64,000 nt of DNA from a virus: IMG/VR virus record IMGVR_UViG_3300017917_003822, positions 62,001-126,000 of that record, one strand, 5' to 3'. Numbering within the stretch: position 1 is the stretch's first letter; each line of letters starts with the position of its first letter. The notes below the pieces were generated by a model. The model was not told where the DNA came from. It did not search any database and saw nothing but the letters and a program-made list of their open reading frames with translations. Both the position numbers and the translations under genes were made by a program. Of this stretch, positions 40,912 to 62,020 are shown piece after piece.

Positions 40912-42450
40912 ATGCCTGTTACTAATATACAATCTTTAAATTATGGTGACTCACAATCACAGATCATCGACAAAATAAACTACAATTTTGACGAGATTGT
41001 CGAGGCTCATGGGGGAACTCAGGGTATTACCGGACCTACCGGGGATGTTGGACCTATTGGTTCGAGAGGTCCCATCGGATTTACAGGAGGTACCGGGGTT
41101 AGAGGTACTAGATGGTTTGTTGACTTAGTCCAGCCATCGGGAACTTTTAACACTGTTTCAGAGGGTGACTTTTGGATAGACGCCAGTGACGGAAGAATTT
41201 TTATTTTTACCGAATCTGGATGGACAAACACTGGATATACATTAGCTTCAGGAGGTAATATATTTAAACAGGAGGACTCATATTTCTCATCGGGTGGAAC
41301 CGGATCAGCTATTCTTTTTGACCAGATACTACCTCAGAATTATCTCATGATTATAGCTGACAAAGTACCAGAGTCGGGCGTACTGAATGAAAATTTGTCT
41401 AAATTTGTAATTTCCACAGATACCACTGTTAACGATTCACCGGTATTGGAGTTCTCCAAGAGTAATGTTGAATCTGGGGATATCTCTGATTACTCTCAGC
41501 ACCCTATCTTCAGATGGAAAAATTTCGACCCATTAAATAATTCTCTGGTTTTAGAAATACCCGGCGGATCTTTCGTAATAGGTTCCTCTGGAGGATTCCA
41601 ATCAACATTTGACTTTTTAACGGTACAGACACCATCAGCAACTTCCATTTCTTATGGTGCAACTTCAGGATCTGGTATATTTTCTACGGGAGGGTTTGAA
41701 TTAAATACCAGCGGACAATTTAAATTTAGAAGTTCTTTTTTTAATGTCACTGGTGGATCTGGTTATATTTCCGCGCCTGTTAATTTAACGGCAAGTCTTA
41801 CCCCGACAACCCCCTCAATCTTCACTTTTAGTGGTGGAACTGCAGGTTTCAGAACTTCAAGATCCGGTGACAGTTTTAATACGTTGTCAAACTCCGTTTA
41901 TGCTCTTTCGTTAGAATCATCTTCCGATCGTGAATTTTTCATAAACACAAAGGGAAAAATAAGAACAAAAAAAGCGGAGACCTCGATTTCCTATGCATCG
42001 ACTACACCTGGAGCTACCAGTACAGTATCGTCTAATTTGGTTAACTGGTACCTTATTTCAAGAACTTCTACTCCTGTGGCATCCTCAGTTTTACAATCAG
42101 GTAACACCATAGTCATAAATCCGGTTATACCAACCAGCAGCTATGTTGGTATTGGAGTTTATAGTGCAGCTGATTACTCTTGGGGAACGACTGGTGGACT
42201 TGAACCTGGTCAATCCATAGATATTAATGTCCACTATAGTCCAAACACAACTCAAAGGGGTTTTAGTGAGGGCTTCCGTTATATTGGTAAAGGAGCAACC
42301 AGTGGGGACGTATCAAATGTAATCACTTTACCTTTCGCAGCAACTAACGTGGACTTCACTTTAGCTAGAGGAGTTACATCCAGTAATATGACCGTTTTTT
42401 ATAGAGCTTATGGTTCTACTGGTGGATCTGGTGGATCTTTTGTTGTCTGA
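40912..42450 (+). CDS. Fibre paralogue 1: collagen-like stalk protein
   Basis: A 512-residue protein, first of three tandem paralogues. Residues 12-29 (GDSQSQIIDKINYNFDEI) form a shared N-terminal module, probably the virion attachment or trimerisation helix. Residues 38-67 are ten G-x-y triplets (GIT GPT GDV GPI and so on, ending GVR GTR W), a short collagen-like stalk. Residues 67-110 form a conserved Trp-rich strand domain (DFWIDASDGRIFIF), and the rest is a Gly/Ser/Thr beta knob ending GGSGGSFVV. No Hint domain. Such short-stalk proteins act as fibres or head/baseplate decorations. The stop codon lies inside the next candidate promoter motif. Confidence 0.6.
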   Translation: MPVTNIQSLNYGDSQSQIIDKINYNFDEIVEAHGGTQGITGPTGDVGPIGSRGPIGFTGGTGVRGTRWFVDLVQPSGTFNTVSEGDFWIDASDGRIFIFTESGWTNTGYTLASGGNIFKQEDSYFSSGGTGSAILFDQILPQNYLMIIADKVPESGVLNENLSKFVISTDTTVNDSPVLEFSKSNVESGDISDYSQHPIFRWKNFDPLNNSLVLEIPGGSFVIGSSGGFQSTFDFLTVQTPSATSISYGATSGSGIFSTGGFELNTSGQFKFRSSFFNVTGGSGYISAPVNLTASLTPTTPSIFTFSGGTAGFRTSRSGDSFNTLSNSVYALSLESSSDREFFINTKGKIRTKKAETSISYASTTPGATSTVSSNLVNWYLISRTSTPVASSVLQSGNTIVINPVIPTSSYVGIGVYSAADYSWGTTGGLEPGQSIDINVHYSPNTTQRGFSEGFRYIGKGATSGDVSNVITLPFAATNVDFTLARGVTSSNMTVFYRAYGSTGGSGGSFVV

Positions 42451-42457
42451 TATATAC
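42449..42457 (+). promoter_or_regulatory. Candidate late promoter, GATATATAC
   Basis: GATATATAC begins within the TGA stop codon of the preceding gene and ends 24 bases before the next ATG, in a 31-base gap. It would give the second and third fibre paralogues an own start site. Confidence 0.45.
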
Positions 42458-42481
42458 AATAATTATTCCACTTAATCTCAA

Positions 42482-44167
42482 ATGGCAGAATTAAAATTAC
42501 TAAGAATAGAGGAGGGTGACTCTCAGAAGACTTTAACAGATAAGGTAAATGTAAACTTTGCCAATCTGATAATCTTTGATGGTGGTCCCTATGGTAGAAT
42601 TGGAGAAAAAGGTCCAGAGGGAGCTAAAGGTGCCACCGGGCCGATTGGATCGTATGGAGATCGAGGGGTTCGTGGTACAATTTGGACTGTGGGTCCCTGC
42701 CAGCCAAGCCCAACAGGATCTATAGTCGGTGATTTTTGGTTGAATACAGATAATTCAAATTATGTTTATCGTTTCGGATCGGATAGAAATTGGTCACAAT
42801 ACGGTTTTAATTTAAAATCTGAGGATCTTTTCAGGGTATACGGACCACTTTTGAACTCAGCTGGTACCACTAATAAATACGGTTATTTTCTATCATCCAA
42901 TACTCCGATAGATTATACTGTTGTTATTACCGATAATCCATCTATGGATAGCGGAACTGAATTTTCACCAAACCCAATATTCAATCCACAATATTCAAAG
43001 TTTGTTATATCCGTGGACGGAACAAATCCTAATAAAAACATATTAGAATTCACAAAATCTGATTATGATGATACCTCGTTCACTGAAGGAACTCCTAGAT
43101 TTTATTGGAATCAGGGTCCTACTGCAGACAGAGGAAATTATGGGTTATCCTTCAAAAATTATGACCGGACAAATTTTAGCCTACCTAATTCAACTCTGAG
43201 ATTCGAGTCAACTTCGTCATCTATATCCCTTGATTCAGTCGGATTCAATCTTTATCTAAATAGTCAACAGTTATTTACTGTTAATTCATCAGGTGAAATT
43301 TATTTTGATTTCAATAACGGTACTGCTCTGTTTTCAACAAGAAATATATCATATAGCCCAAGTGGGTTTAATTTAACTACTGGATTAAATGTTTATTCAG
43401 AGTCAAGTGATCAAAATCCTCCACTGCATCTTATATCAGGATCTGCTGGAACCGGAAATTTAAGATACCTTTATAACTCGACGCCAAGTAATTCAGCATT
43501 TTTATTTAGAGTAGTTCAGGGAACAGGTACGTTATTTTCCACCTTTGGTGCGGGATATACTTTCATGGATAAGAGGGTTAATTCTATACAATCCCCACAA
43601 AATTTAACCCAAACTGCTTCAGGAACATATGGGTCAACTACCGTAAATTGGACAGCAGTTATACCATCCATAGCTGTAAATACAACGTCGGGTGATTATT
43701 TTTATGCAAATAATGGATCTGATTTTGTTATTGAAAGATCACCATCAGCTTCTCCCGGTGACAGAGGCATCTGTATATGGACTCCAGCAACAGGTGGAAC
43801 CGTTGGCTTTAACGGAGGATGGTTAAATTTGGTGGAGGATCAAGAGGCTATCACATTTAGAGTACATAGCACAAATCCGGGATCAACAGCAGATTGTTTT
43901 AGATATCTTGGATTGAATACGAGCCAATCCCCAAATATTATACCATCAACGTTTAATTCTGGTGTAAATGAGGCAGTTGCAATTTTACCTGCTGGTGAAT
44001 ATGCTTCCACTGCCGAATTTACGGTTGTTAACGTAAGGGGTGCAACTGGAGGTGCCGGTGGAACAGGAGGAACTCGAAGATGGTACAAAGTATTTTATTC
44101 TGCGTGGGGCGGTAATTTATCAAATACCTATTGTGGGGTTTTAACAACAAGTAATTCAATAGCTTAA
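42482..44167 (+). CDS. Fibre paralogue 2: collagen-like stalk protein
   Basis: A 561-residue paralogue of the preceding protein. The N-terminal module is GDSQKTLTDKVNVNFANL (12-29), the stalk is eleven G-x-y triplets at 35-67 (GPY GRI GEK GPE up to GVR GTI W), then comes the Trp-rich strand domain (GDFWLNTDNSNYVYRFG). The distal part differs from paralogue 1 (rich in Asn, Ser, Tyr) and contains ALFSTRNISYSPSGFNL-type beta strands. A second Gly-rich stretch (RGATGGAGGTGGTRRWYK) lies near the C-terminus. Conserved base and variable tip fit a receptor-binding family. The next paralogue starts 1 base after the stop codon. Confidence 0.6.
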   Translation: MAELKLLRIEEGDSQKTLTDKVNVNFANLIIFDGGPYGRIGEKGPEGAKGATGPIGSYGDRGVRGTIWTVGPCQPSPTGSIVGDFWLNTDNSNYVYRFGSDRNWSQYGFNLKSEDLFRVYGPLLNSAGTTNKYGYFLSSNTPIDYTVVITDNPSMDSGTEFSPNPIFNPQYSKFVISVDGTNPNKNILEFTKSDYDDTSFTEGTPRFYWNQGPTADRGNYGLSFKNYDRTNFSLPNSTLRFESTSSSISLDSVGFNLYLNSQQLFTVNSSGEIYFDFNNGTALFSTRNISYSPSGFNLTTGLNVYSESSDQNPPLHLISGSAGTGNLRYLYNSTPSNSAFLFRVVQGTGTLFSTFGAGYTFMDKRVNSIQSPQNLTQTASGTYGSTTVNWTAVIPSIAVNTTSGDYFYANNGSDFVIERSPSASPGDRGICIWTPATGGTVGFNGGWLNLVEDQEAITFRVHSTNPGSTADCFRYLGLNTSQSPNIIPSTFNSGVNEAVAILPAGEYASTAEFTVVNVRGATGGAGGTGGTRRWYKVFYSAWGGNLSNTYCGVLTTSNSIA

Positions 44168-44168
44168 T

Positions 44169-46343
44169 ATGCATTTCAATACTAAATACATTTTTCAGGG
44201 TGACGATAGAGGTGAAATCGCCAGCAAGATCAATTACAACTTTGATCAGATAATTTCATTTGCTGTTGGTCCTGATGGACATATTGGCCCAAGAGGAGCT
44301 ACTGGATTATATGGTCCTGCAGGATTTAAGGGATTAACAGGAGCTACTGGAGCGAGAGGAACGATGATATTTAAACAACCAACTCAACCTCTTCCTTCTG
44401 AAACACAGGAATATGACATTTGGGTGGATAATTCTTCAGGTGAGGGTGACGTGAATGTTTTAGGAGCTACCGGAACTTGGAATTATTCAGGTTATTCTTT
44501 TTTTAGTTCCTCGTATTTTTCAACCTATTCTTGGATACTTGGACCAGCTGGATCCACTGATAAATATGTTGTTGGTATTAAAGATATAGCAAATGCTCCT
44601 ATCACTAATCTGGTTATAAGCGACGGTAACCCAACATCATCAGTTTCAAATCCAAATAATTCTAAGGTTCTTGTTGCCACGCAAGATCAGACGTCAACAC
44701 CAATATTTACTCTATCTAAAACTGGAGCTATTTCTTCTGGAGTACCTTCTTTTTATTGGGAGTCTACTGGATCCAATCGTAATCTTGTTTATAGGTCAAC
44801 GGGTGATCTTGAGATAATATCTCAGTTGAGGATGTCTATAGATTCAGGCCTGGCAAGAACTCTTTTATTTGGTAATAATGTTAATATAACAGCCTCGAGT
44901 TTTACTGTGGGTGGATCTGGTGATTTCCAACTAGCAGCAAACACAACTGTTGGTAGTGGTGGTATATTTAATGTACAGTCTCAAAATTTACTGATCGCCT
45001 CCTCATATTTCACTAGTGCTGATCCTTTGACTATATACGCAGCATCAGGAAATTATGTTCTCAATGATGTCCCAGTTTCTGCTGGATTAAACTCCGGTAT
45101 AACAATATCAACAACATCCACGGCAAATGATAGTTTTTCGATAAATGATCTAACTGGAAATCCGATTTTATCGGGTAAACCATTTGGATCGGTTGATAGC
45201 GGGAAACACTCACAAACAATATTTGGCTCAACCGGTGGATTTACCGGAGGTACCGCCGGTCCATTTTCATACCATGTAAGAAGGGCTTCTCAAGTTACTA
45301 AAAGCACGGTTACAGTTCTATCAGCTGCTCGATATCTTTCAACCACAGCAGGGACAGATACCCTAAATAACGTTTTCGATCTAACAGATCTGTCTCTTTG
45401 GAATTCAAATGTTATAGTCGTTACACCTACATTGTATACGAATAGCGGACAAGCTGGGGTTTATTTGAGAATACCAGCATCATATTTGAATTCATTAGAG
45501 CCAGTTTATAATACGGGTCGAACCAATATTTATAGAATTCTTTTAAACTCACTAGATTCTAGTTTATCTGCTAGGTTTATTAATGGTTTTGTTTTCAGTT
45601 ACACCAATTACGGTTCAGGAGGACTAACTTCAACGTCGATTTTAAATTACTTTAATTTACCAACTCCGATTTCTATTAATAGTTATTGCCAGTATATCGA
45701 TCTCCATTGGCTAGGAATATCAAACTCTTCCAATCTTAATCCGAGACTTTTCTATAAAGCATGTAACGGTGTCGGTGGATATTTAGAATTAACCAACTTA
45801 AATAGTATAGGATCGGAACAACCTATTACATCCGGGTCATCTCCAACCTCTGGTACAGGAAGCCCGAGTTTTGACGACGGTAGCTTCATTTCAAGTGGTG
45901 GTGGATCGTTTTTCAATCCATTCTGTCCAACTCCAGATATGTTAATTTATTTAGGTGATGGTAATTGGATTGCTGCTGGGGAGCTTAATATCGGAGATAT
46001 AGTATATACGCTTCATGAGCAAACTAACCAGTGGGATTATTATAAAGTTTCTTCAGTTGACAGAGCCACTCAGCCTGTTATCTCTGCAATTATTGGGGGC
46101 AAAGAAATTAAGGTATCAGAGCACCATAGATTCCTCACTGTTGATAATGAGTATGTTTCCATTAACGACCTTCAGATTGGTTCCGAACTTAGAACGATCG
46201 ACGGTTCAGTTAAATTAGAATCTAAAACAAATATAGGAGAGACTGAAGTTGTTAAAATAGAAATTGAAAATGCACATACGTATGTTCTGGAGGGTGTAAT
46301 CTCACACAACGTAAAAATAAGTCAGTTTATAGCAGCACCATAA
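44169..46343 (+). CDS. Fibre paralogue 3 with C-terminal Hint domain
   Basis: A 724-residue third paralogue. The N-terminal module is GDDRGEIASKINYNFDQI (11-28); eleven G-x-y triplets at 34-66 lead to a strand domain (EYDIWVDNSSG) and a Ser/Gly-rich distal part up to residue 585. It then carries what paralogues 1 and 2 lack: a 139-residue Hint domain from Cys-586 (CPTPDMLIYLGDG). The catalytic block is VSEHHRFLT and the terminal motif ENAHTYVLEGVISHN ends at Asn-714; ten further residues (VKISQFIAAP) follow. A very similar domain ends the 910-residue protein at 47473. Self-cleavage is expected from family knowledge; protein splicing is not, because the residue after Asn is Val. Confidence 0.65.
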   Translation: MHFNTKYIFQGDDRGEIASKINYNFDQIISFAVGPDGHIGPRGATGLYGPAGFKGLTGATGARGTMIFKQPTQPLPSETQEYDIWVDNSSGEGDVNVLGATGTWNYSGYSFFSSSYFSTYSWILGPAGSTDKYVVGIKDIANAPITNLVISDGNPTSSVSNPNNSKVLVATQDQTSTPIFTLSKTGAISSGVPSFYWESTGSNRNLVYRSTGDLEIISQLRMSIDSGLARTLLFGNNVNITASSFTVGGSGDFQLAANTTVGSGGIFNVQSQNLLIASSYFTSADPLTIYAASGNYVLNDVPVSAGLNSGITISTTSTANDSFSINDLTGNPILSGKPFGSVDSGKHSQTIFGSTGGFTGGTAGPFSYHVRRASQVTKSTVTVLSAARYLSTTAGTDTLNNVFDLTDLSLWNSNVIVVTPTLYTNSGQAGVYLRIPASYLNSLEPVYNTGRTNIYRILLNSLDSSLSARFINGFVFSYTNYGSGGLTSTSILNYFNLPTPISINSYCQYIDLHWLGISNSSNLNPRLFYKACNGVGGYLELTNLNSIGSEQPITSGSSPTSGTGSPSFDDGSFISSGGGSFFNPFCPTPDMLIYLGDGNWIAAGELNIGDIVYTLHEQTNQWDYYKVSSVDRATQPVISAIIGGKEIKVSEHHRFLTVDNEYVSINDLQIGSELRTIDGSVKLESKTNIGETEVVKIEIENAHTYVLEGVISHNVKISQFIAAP
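45924..46340 (+). other. Hint (hedgehog/intein) autoprocessing domain, copy 1
   Basis: Residues 586-724 of the third fibre paralogue. Block A: Cys-586 with PTPDM and G-D-x-x-I-x-A-G-E-L. Block B-like: VSEHHRF, with His pair for activating the N-terminal acyl shift. Block F/G-like: AHTYVLEG and the terminal SHN. All parts of a working Hint fold appear present. The following Val is not Cys, Ser or Thr. Confidence 0.75.
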
Positions 46344-46364
46344 AAAATTAAAATATATATAACT

Positions 46365-46628
46365 ATGATAAATCTAACAAAAAAAGAACAGGAAAGCATG
46401 CTTAATCTATCTAAGGAATTTGTAAGCATACATCAAGAGATTCTCCAGGTTGAGAAAACTATTAAGGAGATGGAAGACAGATCATGTGAATTGATATCCC
46501 AACTCGAGAGATGCAGAGAAAACGAGAGTGATTTTATCTGCAAATTAGAAAAAAAATACGGAATCGGATCTCTAGATCCTATCAATCTCGTATGGAAAAA
46601 AGAAACAGTAAATAATGAAGTACATTAA
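46365..46628 (+). CDS. Small coiled-coil protein
   Basis: An 87-residue protein made almost wholly of charged helix: SMLNLSKEFVSIHQEILQVE, then KTIKEMEDRSCELISQLERC, a strong heptad pattern with two Cys. The end (SLDPINLVWKKE) is a short strand. It overlaps the membrane-anchored gene by 14 bases, and the two lie between the Hint-bearing genes. An AT-rich ATATATATAA lies only 3 bases before the ATG, too near for a promoter unless the mRNA is leaderless. The function is unknown; a partner of the downstream membrane protein is likely. Confidence 0.5.
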   Translation: MINLTKKEQESMLNLSKEFVSIHQEILQVEKTIKEMEDRSCELISQLERCRENESDFICKLEKKYGIGSLDPINLVWKKETVNNEVH

Positions 46629-47463
46629 CAAAGAAAATTTAGGTAAGATATCGGGTTTATTAGGAAATAGATTTTTTCTAATTGCAGTAATTGTTGTTTT
46701 AATAATGCTCTCGTTAAAACAGTGTGGTGATGTCGATCATGCTAAAGCTGAAGCATTAAGAGAACATAATAACTATTTGGCATCTCTTGATTCGGTTAGA
46801 GTTATAAAGAATGAGCTTGGAGAGCTTATCGTGGAAAAATCGGCATATCAACTTAAGGTTTCTGAATTAAGCAATGAACAAAAAGATCTGATAAAAAGAC
46901 TCGACTTAAACACGAACGGGAGAGGAACAACACCAAAGACCGTTATCCAGACAGTTTCAGAATATAATGAAACTATAACAAACATAAAATCGGAGGTTGT
47001 TAAGGACCCAAATGGTTCTGAAGCAATAACATTCAATCATGAACCAACTTTACCAGGAAAAAATAAATTAAAAATATCAGGAAAGGTACCATACGATCTT
47101 AATTTACTGAGGGATCCTGCAGATTCTACTAAATATATAGCTTCAGTTAATCCACTAGGTACAACTTTAACCATAGAGCAGAATATTGATATCGTTACTG
47201 GTCTTTATCAAGATCCCAAATCTAAAAGAATAATGACTAGGGTAAGTACAACCTATCCAAATTTAACTTTTAGCGAAGTTAATTCTTTTGATATTACTGA
47301 TAATCCGGAAGCTAGAAAAGCTTTAAAAGCAGCTAGAAAGGAATTTGGTCTTGGAGTAAGCGTAGGTTATGGTTTAATAGGAAACTCAAATAGCATGAGC
47401 ACCGGTGTTTTTGTTGGACTTGGTCTCCACTATACACCAAAATTTTTACAATTCGGAAAATAA
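46615..47463 (+). CDS. Membrane-anchored coiled-coil protein
   Basis: A 282-residue protein. Residues 20-34 (FFLIAVIVVLIMLSL) form one membrane segment preceded by positive residues, so the N-terminus should be inside and the rest in the periplasm. KQCGD directly after it lacks a proper lipobox. Residues 42-100 are coiled coil (LREHNNYLASLDSVRVIKNE; EKSAYQLKVSELSNEQKDLI). Residues 120-230 are a beta domain, and the C-terminal 45 residues (FGLGVSVGYGLIG; GVFVGLGLHYTPKFL) are alternating amphipathic strands like outer-membrane hairpins. An inner-membrane anchor, coil and outer-membrane-type end would suit a spanin-like lysis protein or an envelope-spanning factor. That is inference. Confidence 0.45.
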   Translation: MKYINKENLGKISGLLGNRFFLIAVIVVLIMLSLKQCGDVDHAKAEALREHNNYLASLDSVRVIKNELGELIVEKSAYQLKVSELSNEQKDLIKRLDLNTNGRGTTPKTVIQTVSEYNETITNIKSEVVKDPNGSEAITFNHEPTLPGKNKLKISGKVPYDLNLLRDPADSTKYIASVNPLGTTLTIEQNIDIVTGLYQDPKSKRIMTRVSTTYPNLTFSEVNSFDITDNPEARKALKAARKEFGLGVSVGYGLIGNSNSMSTGVFVGLGLHYTPKFLQFGK

Positions 47464-47472
47464 AATATAAAA

Positions 47473-50205
47473 ATGGCATTTACTACTACATCCAAATTTG
47501 TACAGATTACTCCATACCTTTTGATGGAGTATATGTATGCTGATGAACCAACACCGGAAACACACTTTGTTAATAGTGGAGGGGTTACCGTGGGGTATAA
47601 TAAATTGATAAATGGATATAGAAGTAATACAGTCCAAATTTTCAATAGAAATTCCGATTATCCCACTACACATAATACAACCGAGAATAACGTGGTTAGA
47701 ATAGGTGAGTCATCTTTTGTGACACTTGATTCCAATCTGATAGTTCCATTTAATGATTACTCTGATGAGCTAACTGATACTATAAACTTACCAATAGTTT
47801 TTCCGTCTAATTTGCTGGTTGTTTATGATACTGTTAGATATCACATAAGAGCTGGATATAATCTAAACAATCTTGATGGCTTGATTTTAACTGTCGAGTA
47901 TCAAGATCAAAATTTAGAATACGTTACAGCTTCTCAAATTCTATTAAAGAAAGGAACTGAGCAAGAGTACAATTTAAATCCAAATCCAGTTACGATCGGA
48001 GCAAATATCTATGATAAGTACTTTGAGATAAAGCTTCCTAACTTGAAGGATATGAACGATAAGTATTTAGCTGCTTCGTCCGCTTTTAAACCAGAAACAC
48101 TTGCTTCGTTAATTAGTTCGAGTGGAAATGGATTTATTTACGGATCCCCACTAAGAGTAACTGCTTGGCAGGTTCAAAATACTGTAGATTTTAACGGCTA
48201 CGAGAGATATAATTGTGCCGAAATAGCTACACTTTCTCTAGAGCAGGAGGATCCTTTTTCTAATATAGGTGCTACCATCAAGGAATCCGACAGGGGTCAA
48301 TTTTTTGAATATTATGCAACTGATAACGAGGGATTTATAGAGGATTTTATACTTTTTCAAAATTCGATAGGAAATGGGTATTATATAAGTCACCAGATAG
48401 AAGTACTAGAACAAATAGGGGCAGCTCTTATACAAACCTCAGGTTTCCAGTCTATACAAACGACTGCATACGATCTTCCTAATTACTATAGACCTATTGT
48501 TAGAAACGCAGCTGTTGCTGCTAGTTTTACCCTTAGATACACGATGTCTCTGATTAATAGCGTTAATCAAAGTCGAATAATTAGAATATCTACATACAGC
48601 TCGGTTAACCCTAGTCAGTGGGGAACTAATATAACTCCGATACAGCTAAGTACATTCCCGCAAGTTCAGAAGATCTATAACAGAGTTTATTCACAACCTG
48701 GTATTACTGTTGGCGGCGGAACAACAGTAGCACCTAAGGAAATTGTTAAATACACGAACGTTTTTATTAATCAAAATTATGTTACGTCCACAGTAAATAA
48801 TTTGACATTTACTGATAATAGTCTGAATATAAATTCAGGAGCTGAACAAACAACGGCTTTTGGAACCGGAAAAATGAACATCACAATTTCACCATTCGAC
48901 AATTACTACAAGTTTAAATTTATTAAAAGTGGTCCTTCAGCAGATCCAGTTCCGATTGATTTAAGTGCTTCTGGTAATTTTAATATCTCCTTTGTTGATA
49001 ATGTTGGTAACAAAATACAGGTTCCCGCACTGGAGGATAGAAATCTAGCAAATCCATCAACTGGAGAATTAGCTTTTAAACTTGATGAATCCATTTCAAC
49101 CAAGGTTCTTCAGCTAAGCGACAGAAGATTTTTTATTACAAACGGAACATCCATAAATAATGCTCAATCCGGAGTTGCTGCAAAAGAGGTGGTTTCAGTT
49201 GATGCAGGTGTTACTGATAATGTGGTTGAAAAGAGAATTGAATCTGTCATCGCAAATAGAAGAAATGAAGCTATGGCTATCAGCGGAGCCAATAACTATA
49301 TAAATATTCCAGCATCCAATATACTTACACCAGTAAATAATGCTAATTCTGTCATGTATTGGGGGTATTGGAAAAAACCAGGAGAGGATGATATTATTGT
49401 TGGTGCTACAGCAGCAGCTCCAGTTATAACTCCGACTAGTGGTGTTGGTGTTGTTGGAGCTGTAGAGGAACCTGCTCCTGTTCCTATAATTAAAAATGTA
49501 AAACCGAGAACTTCGGGTTCTGGTAAATTCTTGATTGGTTCCGCAACTGCGAACACCACTGAGACATTAACTGGAAGTGCATTGATATCAGCTCTAAGTG
49601 CTGAAATTGCTGGATATAAAGCTACTGGATGGCAGGATCAGACCATTATAAATTACTTCATGGTTCCTGGTAAAGCTGGATATATTAAATATCCTGGACT
49701 AACCAAACAACAGTTTATCCAGGCAGCTACTGGTATATTAGCACCGGCGACTCTAACTAGATTTGGTAGAACAAATAATGGCGGTGGCGGATGTCCAACT
49801 CCAGATATGAGGATCTTAACATCAGATGGTGATTATATTAAGGCTGGTGATATTAAAGTAGGAACTAGTGTTCATACGGTCCATGAAAAAACTGGAGAAT
49901 TTGGTGACTATAGAGTTTCTTATGTGGGTAGAATGATCCAGCCTATATTAAGAGTCAGCATAGATGGAAAATCTATAACAGTTTCAGATTCCCATAAATT
50001 TTTAACTGAGAATGGTGAATATGTTACAATCTCTAACATAACTGAGGGCACTTTAATTAAAACCATTAACGGATTAGCAAAACTTGAAAGTAAGCAGAGA
50101 ATAGGTGAGGGAGAGGTTATTAAAATAGAGGTTGAAAATGCACACACTTACGTTCTGGAGGGAGTTATCTCACATAACATTAAAGCTGCTTCCTTAGTAG
50201 AATAA
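47473..50205 (+). CDS. Virion protein with C-terminal Hint domain
   Basis: A 910-residue protein. Residues about 1-560 are beta-type structure with an N-terminal segment FVQITPYLLMEYMYADEP. Residues 560-770 include Ala/Pro-rich linkers and a helical piece (TGSALISALSAEIAGYKATG). A 137-residue Hint domain begins at Cys-774 after GGGG and shares most positions with that of the fibre paralogue at 44169 (both begin CPTPDM, both end ENAHTYVLEGVISHN). Asn-902 is followed by IKAASLVE. The protein has no collagen stalk and no common N-terminal module, so only the Hint part is shared, indicating domain transfer between two structural genes. Cleavage would free a mature protein of about 773 residues. 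It is probably a tail or fibre component. Confidence 0.6.
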   Translation: MAFTTTSKFVQITPYLLMEYMYADEPTPETHFVNSGGVTVGYNKLINGYRSNTVQIFNRNSDYPTTHNTTENNVVRIGESSFVTLDSNLIVPFNDYSDELTDTINLPIVFPSNLLVVYDTVRYHIRAGYNLNNLDGLILTVEYQDQNLEYVTASQILLKKGTEQEYNLNPNPVTIGANIYDKYFEIKLPNLKDMNDKYLAASSAFKPETLASLISSSGNGFIYGSPLRVTAWQVQNTVDFNGYERYNCAEIATLSLEQEDPFSNIGATIKESDRGQFFEYYATDNEGFIEDFILFQNSIGNGYYISHQIEVLEQIGAALIQTSGFQSIQTTAYDLPNYYRPIVRNAAVAASFTLRYTMSLINSVNQSRIIRISTYSSVNPSQWGTNITPIQLSTFPQVQKIYNRVYSQPGITVGGGTTVAPKEIVKYTNVFINQNYVTSTVNNLTFTDNSLNINSGAEQTTAFGTGKMNITISPFDNYYKFKFIKSGPSADPVPIDLSASGNFNISFVDNVGNKIQVPALEDRNLANPSTGELAFKLDESISTKVLQLSDRRFFITNGTSINNAQSGVAAKEVVSVDAGVTDNVVEKRIESVIANRRNEAMAISGANNYINIPASNILTPVNNANSVMYWGYWKKPGEDDIIVGATAAAPVITPTSGVGVVGAVEEPAPVPIIKNVKPRTSGSGKFLIGSATANTTETLTGSALISALSAEIAGYKATGWQDQTIINYFMVPGKAGYIKYPGLTKQQFIQAATGILAPATLTRFGRTNNGGGGCPTPDMRILTSDGDYIKAGDIKVGTSVHTVHEKTGEFGDYRVSYVGRMIQPILRVSIDGKSITVSDSHKFLTENGEYVTISNITEGTLIKTINGLAKLESKQRIGEGEVIKIEVENAHTYVLEGVISHNIKAASLVE
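49792..50202 (+). other. Hint (hedgehog/intein) autoprocessing domain, copy 2
   Basis: Residues 774-910. Cys-774 follows a flexible GGGG hinge, well placed for cleavage. The block-B-like motif is VSDSHKFLT, with the T/S-x-x-H form, and the terminal motif is ISHN at 899-902. The following Ile excludes standard splicing. Confidence 0.75.
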
Positions 50206-50219
50206 AAAAATAATTTTAG

Positions 50220-50768
50220 ATGATACTCAATCCTAAATCAAGTAGTTTTTATTTCGTTTTTCCGAAGGGATTTTTCCCTGAGATTGTTGTTGATAAATAT
50301 TTGCCATATTTAAAAAAGCAGCCAATACCTTTTGACAACGTTGCAAATTATATGAATAGCACCATCAGATCTATTGGATTCCCATCCATGACCATAGATT
50401 CAGTTGAGCAAATAAGACCATTAGGAAAAAGAATAAATTATAAAAGTGGTACACCAATTCAGGATCTTTTTAGTAAAGATTTTGCGATCCAATTTAAGTT
50501 GGTTGATGGCTTTATTAATTACTTCATAATGTTGGATACGATTATACATTTCATGGACTTTCAGAATCCCGGTCTTTTCCTTCAGAACTTACCACTTAGA
50601 ATTATGGATAATGAAGGTAACATAATAACCTCAGTTACTTTTAAGGAGGTTACTTTAACCTCTTTTTCTGAACTTGAGTTAGCTTATACTTCCAATTCGC
50701 CTCAACCGGCATCATTTACTGTAGGGTTTAAATGTAACTACCTAGATATAGTTTTGGAAGCTAAATAA
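50220..50768 (+). CDS. Putative tail-tube-fold protein
   Basis: A 182-residue protein. Features are FPSMTIDSVEQIRPLGKRINYKSG, a middle helix (GFINYFIMLDTIIHFMDF) and a strand pair ending the protein (ASFTVGFKCNYLDIVLE). The layout of N-terminal loop, long helix between strands, and final V-x-F-x-x-N-Y strand is the tail-tube fold shared by gp19- and gp54-type proteins. Length is close to T4 gp19 (163). It follows the Hint gene by 14 bases. If correct, it would be an accessory tube protein rather than the major tube, since it lies apart from sheath genes. The assignment is by fold pattern only. Confidence 0.35.
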   Translation: MILNPKSSSFYFVFPKGFFPEIVVDKYLPYLKKQPIPFDNVANYMNSTIRSIGFPSMTIDSVEQIRPLGKRINYKSGTPIQDLFSKDFAIQFKLVDGFINYFIMLDTIIHFMDFQNPGLFLQNLPLRIMDNEGNIITSVTFKEVTLTSFSELELAYTSNSPQPASFTVGFKCNYLDIVLEAK

Positions 50769-62000: not shown

Positions 62001-62020
62001 AAGCCGACTTAGAATAGTAT

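Follow-up and report, generated by a model that had tools for sequence, protein, structure and literature searches.

Why should two otherwise unrelated proteins of a single virus end in closely related Hint domains, and what might such a domain do in that position? The question is raised by a 64,000-nucleotide stretch of DNA (hereafter the window; positions 62,001 to 126,000 of IMG/VR record IMGVR_UViG_3300017917_003822), which is a portion of a 270,629-base virus record; this large uncultured virus is most likely a contractile-tailed phage. The features that bear on the question, all on the plus strand and in window coordinates, are these:

40912-44167, +, two related fibre-like ORFs lacking a Hint domain (512 and 561 aa)
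44169-46343, +, fibre-like protein of 724 aa, third of the three related ORFs, with a C-terminal Hint domain
45924-46310, +, Hint domain of the fibre-like protein (Cys586-Asn714), putatively type A BIL-like, CPTPDM subfamily
46311-46340, +, 10-residue tail VKISQFIAAP behind Asn714, Lys at +2
46365-47463, +, coiled-coil gene (87 aa) overlapping a membrane anchor gene (282 aa), between the two Hint genes
47473-50205, +, 910-aa protein ending in a Hint domain
49774-49791, +, Gly-rich linker NNGGGG, directly ahead of the predicted scissile bond
49792-50178, +, Hint domain of the 910-aa protein (Cys774-Asn902; AlphaFold2 pLDDT 93, TM 0.87 to BIL2)
50179-50202, +, 8-residue tail IKAASLVE behind Asn902, Lys at +2, disordered in the model
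50220-50768, +, tail-tube-like protein (phrog_45, E 4e-8)

The two C-terminal domains are paralogous Hint domains. Counted to the stop, they comprise 139 residues from Cys586 and 137 from Cys774, and both open with CPTPDM, as a re-reading of the ORFs confirmed for the original prediction; the block-B region reads VSEHHRFLT in the fibre-like protein and VSDSHKFLT in the 910-residue protein, and both domains close with ENAHTYVLEGVISHN before their respective tails. They share 53% identity as protein and 63% as DNA, and are the only Hint copies in their own genome. Comparison of the 724- and 910-residue proteins by blastp returned E = 5e-44 for the C-termini only, with nothing significant elsewhere; the likeness is thus beyond chance, and the claim that one domain is common to two otherwise unrelated proteins holds. 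About 60% of terminal CPTPDM domains have Gly ahead of the Cys, which counts in favour of self-removal, whereas the Phe ahead of Cys586 counts against it.

Of the proteins that carry these domains, the shorter had been described as a collagen-stalk fibre paralogue. The kinship is well founded, in that its ~200 N-terminal residues match those of the two preceding ORFs at 30% (E 1e-17 to 7e-20), but the short collagen-like stalk near its N-terminus is less secure, the Pfam Collagen match being weak (E 3.5e-4) and under the curated cut-off. The fibre-like protein had no match among named phages. The 910-residue protein consists of several beta-rich modules with disordered linkers, a short helical segment (701-765), the Gly linker and the Hint domain; its full-length model is only fair (pLDDT 71, pTM 0.41), structural matches outside the Hint domain are weak and mixed, and a profile search of the PDB gave no match for its N-terminal part. 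MaF61 is a distant homologue of that N-terminal part, and the paper describing it mentions neither mass spectrometry nor the homologous ORF. The 910-residue gene directly precedes the tail-tube-like gene, and from this neighbour, together with PHROG tail fibre matches, we infer that both Hint carriers belong to the virion.

The genes that lie between the two carriers had been proposed to form one system with them, a proposal that we abandon. A survey of the same neighbourhood in related phages found the gene pair conserved, whereas the Hint domain comes and goes, and because 26 of the 28 relatives with no Hint domain in either protein keep the pair in the same position, it is best regarded as standing outside the Hint system. 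The membrane-anchored coiled-coil protein itself (46615-47463) gives a weak match to DUF6808, and nearly every relative encodes it in the same position.

Assignment of the domains to the Hint fold, also anticipated, is borne out by the predicted structure. The NCBIfam and Pfam intein/Hint models match weakly (TIGR01445 at E 2e-4; TIGR01443 just reaching its 15.6-bit cut-off with the 910 domain). Against the 27.7-bit cut-off of PF07591 (Pretoxin HINT), the full fibre-like protein scores 14.9 bits and its isolated Hint domain 21.2, no match is listed for the 910-residue protein, and one relative (L112) exceeds the threshold at 28.9 bits. An AlphaFold2 model of the 910 domain, built from an alignment of 37 domains with identity down to 34%, is confident (pLDDT 93), and Foldseek places Tetrahymena BIL2 (6y75; TM 0.87, E 6e-10) and Clostridium BIL4 (2lwy; TM 0.86) above inteins and Hedgehog. 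A profile search of the PDB likewise ranks 2lwy first, at E 6e-11. A sterol function of the Hedgehog Hog kind is unlikely, because no extra region lies behind the Asn.

The catalytic Cys, His and Asn are all present, as predicted, and are invariant in the 37 aligned domains: Cys at position 1 and the C-terminal His-Asn occur in 37 of 37, and C1, H68 (block B), H118 (block F), H128 and N129 are among the 15 invariant columns. Within the block-B TxxH motif His68 never varies, and Ser stands for Thr in nearly all (VSxxH, CSxxH). The residue following the Asn is Val in the window fibre and Ile in the 910-residue protein, and among 38 distinct CPTPDM domains it is K in 23, I in nine, R in three, V in two and L in one, with Cys, Ser or Thr in 0 of 38. 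In these features the window domains agree with type A BILs as reviewed (PMC4031507), save for the block-B Ser where Thr is usual. The dN/dS of related Hint pairs is 0.06-0.11 (certain of the dS values are near saturation), and this figure, together with the invariant catalytic set, indicates that the chemistry is under selection. The 8-10 residue tails of the window proteins are unlike the ends of orthologues lacking the domain.

On these grounds we consider it likely, at a probability of about 0.72, that both C-terminal domains are active Hint domains of the type A BIL kind which remove themselves, serving as thioester-forming caps, so that the mature protein ends at the linker. An N-S acyl shift at Cys586 or Cys774, aided by the block-B His, would form a thioester with the preceding linker; cyclisation of the Asn, aided by His128 and His118, would shed the short tail; and the thioester would then be resolved, mostly by hydrolysis (or by amine attack). 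The mature products would be 585 aa (fibre) and 773 aa (910), each ending at the linker as do the Hint-free orthologues. We commit to self-removal of a cap by way of a thioester because published BILs perform all three steps, with cleavage dominating: type A BILs both cleave and splice without a +1 nucleophile, cleavage being dominant, and an amine can attack the thioester (PMC4031507). As such, the earlier expectation of cleavage or transfer stands, but the statement that splicing is unlikely was too strong. Cleavage presumably takes place inside the infected cell, with the domain capping or activating the C-terminal end of a particle protein up to the time of assembly. The open-access literature yielded no biochemical or proteomic data on any member of the family.

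The distribution of the domain among relatives is informative in this regard. The 910-residue protein has relatives at 72 viral loci, and a C-terminal Hint domain is present in 13 of 52 distinct rows of these; nine of the domains are CPTPDM, and the other four, at the same site, belong to a second subfamily (CFxxGT...VHNK). Its absence from the remaining 39 of the 52 argues that it is dispensable. Up to Cys774 the window protein measures 773 aa, compared with 737-784 aa for full-length Hint-free orthologues of >57% identity (three further Hint-free orthologues of 591-594 aa are split genes); up to Cys586 the fibre-like protein measures 585 aa, compared with 508-595 aa for most of its Hint-free orthologues, a few being longer (658-1159 aa). 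This agreement in length supports self-removal at the Cys. A tree of the 910-type N-terminal parts requires at least five changes, whether gains or losses, and the repeated turnover, with two subfamilies alternating at the 910 site, supports functional convergence. One small clade holds CPTPDM domains in L164 and L171 and a CFxxGT domain in L134, the sister of L171. Where the fibre neighbour could be scored, the domain is in both carriers in six rows, in the fibre only in six, in the 910-type protein only in one and in neither in 28 (Fisher p 0.001, a nominal value, since the test takes no account of the kinship among the rows). Across phages, Hint domains group with those on the same carrier rather than with those of the same genome, which speaks against a recent duplication between the two window genes; the differing subfamilies of L164 and L171 similarly disfavour Hint-Hint recognition between the two carriers. 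No relatives of the CPTPDM subfamily were found in a collection of bacterial and archaeal genomes, and a cellular source was rejected on that account. One fibre orthologue (L035:4765-6813) bears at the Hint site a different domain of ~110 residues with no family match.

The two subfamilies are not restricted to these carriers. CPTPDM domains also terminate or interrupt other phage proteins, among them ORFs with a weak Jacalin-like match (L110); proteins of ~2,800 aa and DUF4815 type (L114-L119, the assignment being tested in L114) have in mid-protein a CPTPDM domain that lacks a +1 nucleophile and is followed by ~940-1,120 residues. Internal Hint domains of other phage proteins as a whole are followed by 98-1121 residues. 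CFxxGT domains may be arranged in tandem, as in the "poly-Hint" C-terminus of L147:2502-5222 and in proteins of L143, L144, L145, L151, L153, L155, L167, L170 and L173, with two to four copies per protein and spacers down to two residues. Some have no terminal His-Asn (L179:1234-3378, L202, L211), that of L179 being joined to a subtilase. The Pfam AXH model (the ataxin-1/HBP1 module) matches phage CFxxGT domains (L147, L151, L170 and others) above its cut-off, at best with E 3e-42, and the solved ataxin-1 AXH structure (PDB 1oa8) matches them at E 2e-13; the animal AXH module looks like a derived Hint domain.

A specific clue to the fate of the thioester may lie just past the catalytic Asn. 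Lys occupies +1 (23 domains) or +2 behind Ile, Val, Leu or Arg (15) in 38 of 38 distinct CPTPDM domains, where 10,000 shufflings of the tails gave a mean of 9.9 and never more than 21, with the caveat that the Lys-bearing sequences are related and the counts are not independent events. Lys is also at +1 in 20 of 26 distinct terminal CFxxGT tails, and it is the commonest +1 residue in cellular CFxxGT relatives (14 of 53, with C, S or T together in 19 of 53). Seven CFxxGT proteins (L151, L152, L153, L161, L167, L170, L173) have a single residue past the Asn, in every case Lys (HNK). A basic residue at +1/+2 appears to be under selection, and it may hasten cyclisation of the Asn, support the fold or furnish the amine itself; amine transfer is thus a possibility.

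Were the thioester passed to an amine (a Lys or a free N-terminus) of a virion, capsid or cell-surface protein, fibre ends could be stapled in place. In favour of such conjugation are the conserved lysine and the Gly-rich linkers, which resemble ubiquitin-type C-termini; amine attack is moreover part of the type A mechanism, and BIL2 of Tetrahymena, the closest fold, attaches a ubiquitin-like domain to lysines without ATP and is reported to join its N-extein to them through isopeptide bonds (PMC8616854). However, no acceptor candidate was identified, the +1 residue of BIL2 is Met and the conserved Lys was accordingly rejected as an equivalent of the published BIL2 acceptor, and both the clustering by carrier and the different subfamilies on the L164 and L171 carriers argue against a matched pair; we hold conjugation to be a tentative possibility, and on the unlikely side. 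Its broadest form, a widespread phage system in which Hint-activated linker thioesters of fibre and surface proteins would be transferred to lysine amines in an ATP-free, ubiquitin-like covalent assembly of the virion, is more doubtful, and the same doubt covers the lysines it would employ, namely the near-invariant +1/+2 Lys of the tail or lysines of neighbours. The thioester could also be resolved by splicing, in which the Hint domain is cut out and aminolysis joins the short tail to the linker (e.g. ...GGGG-IKAASLVE). Type A BILs are capable of this as a minor course, the Lys-rich start of the tail is conserved, and splicing would save the long segments behind internal domains; yet the HNK proteins have almost nothing to ligate, tails of 4-20 residues vary widely past +2, and certain CFxxGT members keep Cys1 with the His-Asn end lost, such that splicing appears improbable here.

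Three further explanations can be set beside these. An intramolecular chaperone that aids folding or trimerisation and then cuts itself off has a precedent in the S74 autopeptidase, which serves in this manner on jumbo phage tail fibres and spikes (PMC7824862) from a similar C-terminal placement; the fold and catalytic set are different, however, both proteins have many orthologues without the domain, and internal and tandem copies in other phages sit poorly with a terminal chaperone, making this rather unlikely, if less so than splicing. A non-cleaving Hint fold, retained for binding or as a tip domain, would be equally compatible with the dN/dS taken by itself, and lectin-like parts do occur on certain Hint-bearing relatives (a weak Jacalin-like match in L110, E 6e-4), but the invariance of Cys1, both catalytic His and His-Asn amid mostly variable positions, and the retention of Cys1, the block-B His and His-Asn by two divergent subfamilies, leave it quite improbable. 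A decayed selfish intein stranded at a gene end is largely refuted: terminase mini-inteins of Corynebacterium phages are 30% identical across the whole domain, but there is no space for an endonuclease, no CPTPDM member has a +1 nucleophile, purifying selection is strong and different subfamilies repeatedly occupy the same two genes. These readings and the self-removing cap overlap, and the confidence attached to them is not intended to sum to one.

The self-removing cap should represent a known chemistry in an unusual place, namely Hint self-cutting on what are probably particle-surface proteins. Its recurrence on the same two proteins, its gain and loss, the replacement of one subfamily by another and the strong selection together make a role in particle maturation testable, and the near-fixed Lys behind the Asn offers a handle on how the thioester is resolved. 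If conjugation should prove true, phages would possess a covalent assembly chemistry that takes only one protein and that could double as a ligation tool. Some proteins of uncultured phages already bear an automatic 'Hint domain' label; in the open-access literature, of which coverage was partial, we found no description of phage structural proteins with Hint tails.

Among known systems, the class 1 mini-inteins (Corynebacterium phage terminase, gp41-1) resemble the window domains in fold, in blocks A, B, F and G and at ~30% identity, but are located inside conserved enzymes with a +1 nucleophile, whereas the window domains end variable proteins and have none. Pretoxin HINT (PF07591) gives weak profile matches, and the window domains fall below its cut-off with no toxin domain behind them. 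The S74 autopeptidase shares C-terminal, self-cleaving placement on phage fibres, with an unrelated fold and Ser/Lys chemistry. BIL2, from the Tetrahymena BUBL1 ubiquitin-like locus (6y75/6tmm), is the best fold match, has the candidate amine chemistry in common and is matched by the CFxxGT sister subfamily at E 4e-25; it differs in being eukaryotic, in sitting between ubiquitin-like domains with Met at +1, and in that transfer has been demonstrated for it, whereas for the phage domains it is a possibility. Few biological roles have been settled for type A BIL domains, known since 2003. Those such as BIL4 of Clostridium thermocellum share with the window domains the fold, Cys1, the terminal His-Asn, the want of a +1 nucleophile and hosts that are variable proteins, unlike conserved enzymes. 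The window domains depart from them in belonging to a subfamily that the bacterial and archaeal genome collection does not match, in residing on phage fibre-like proteins, mostly at the extreme C-terminus, and in the near-fixed Lys at +1/+2.
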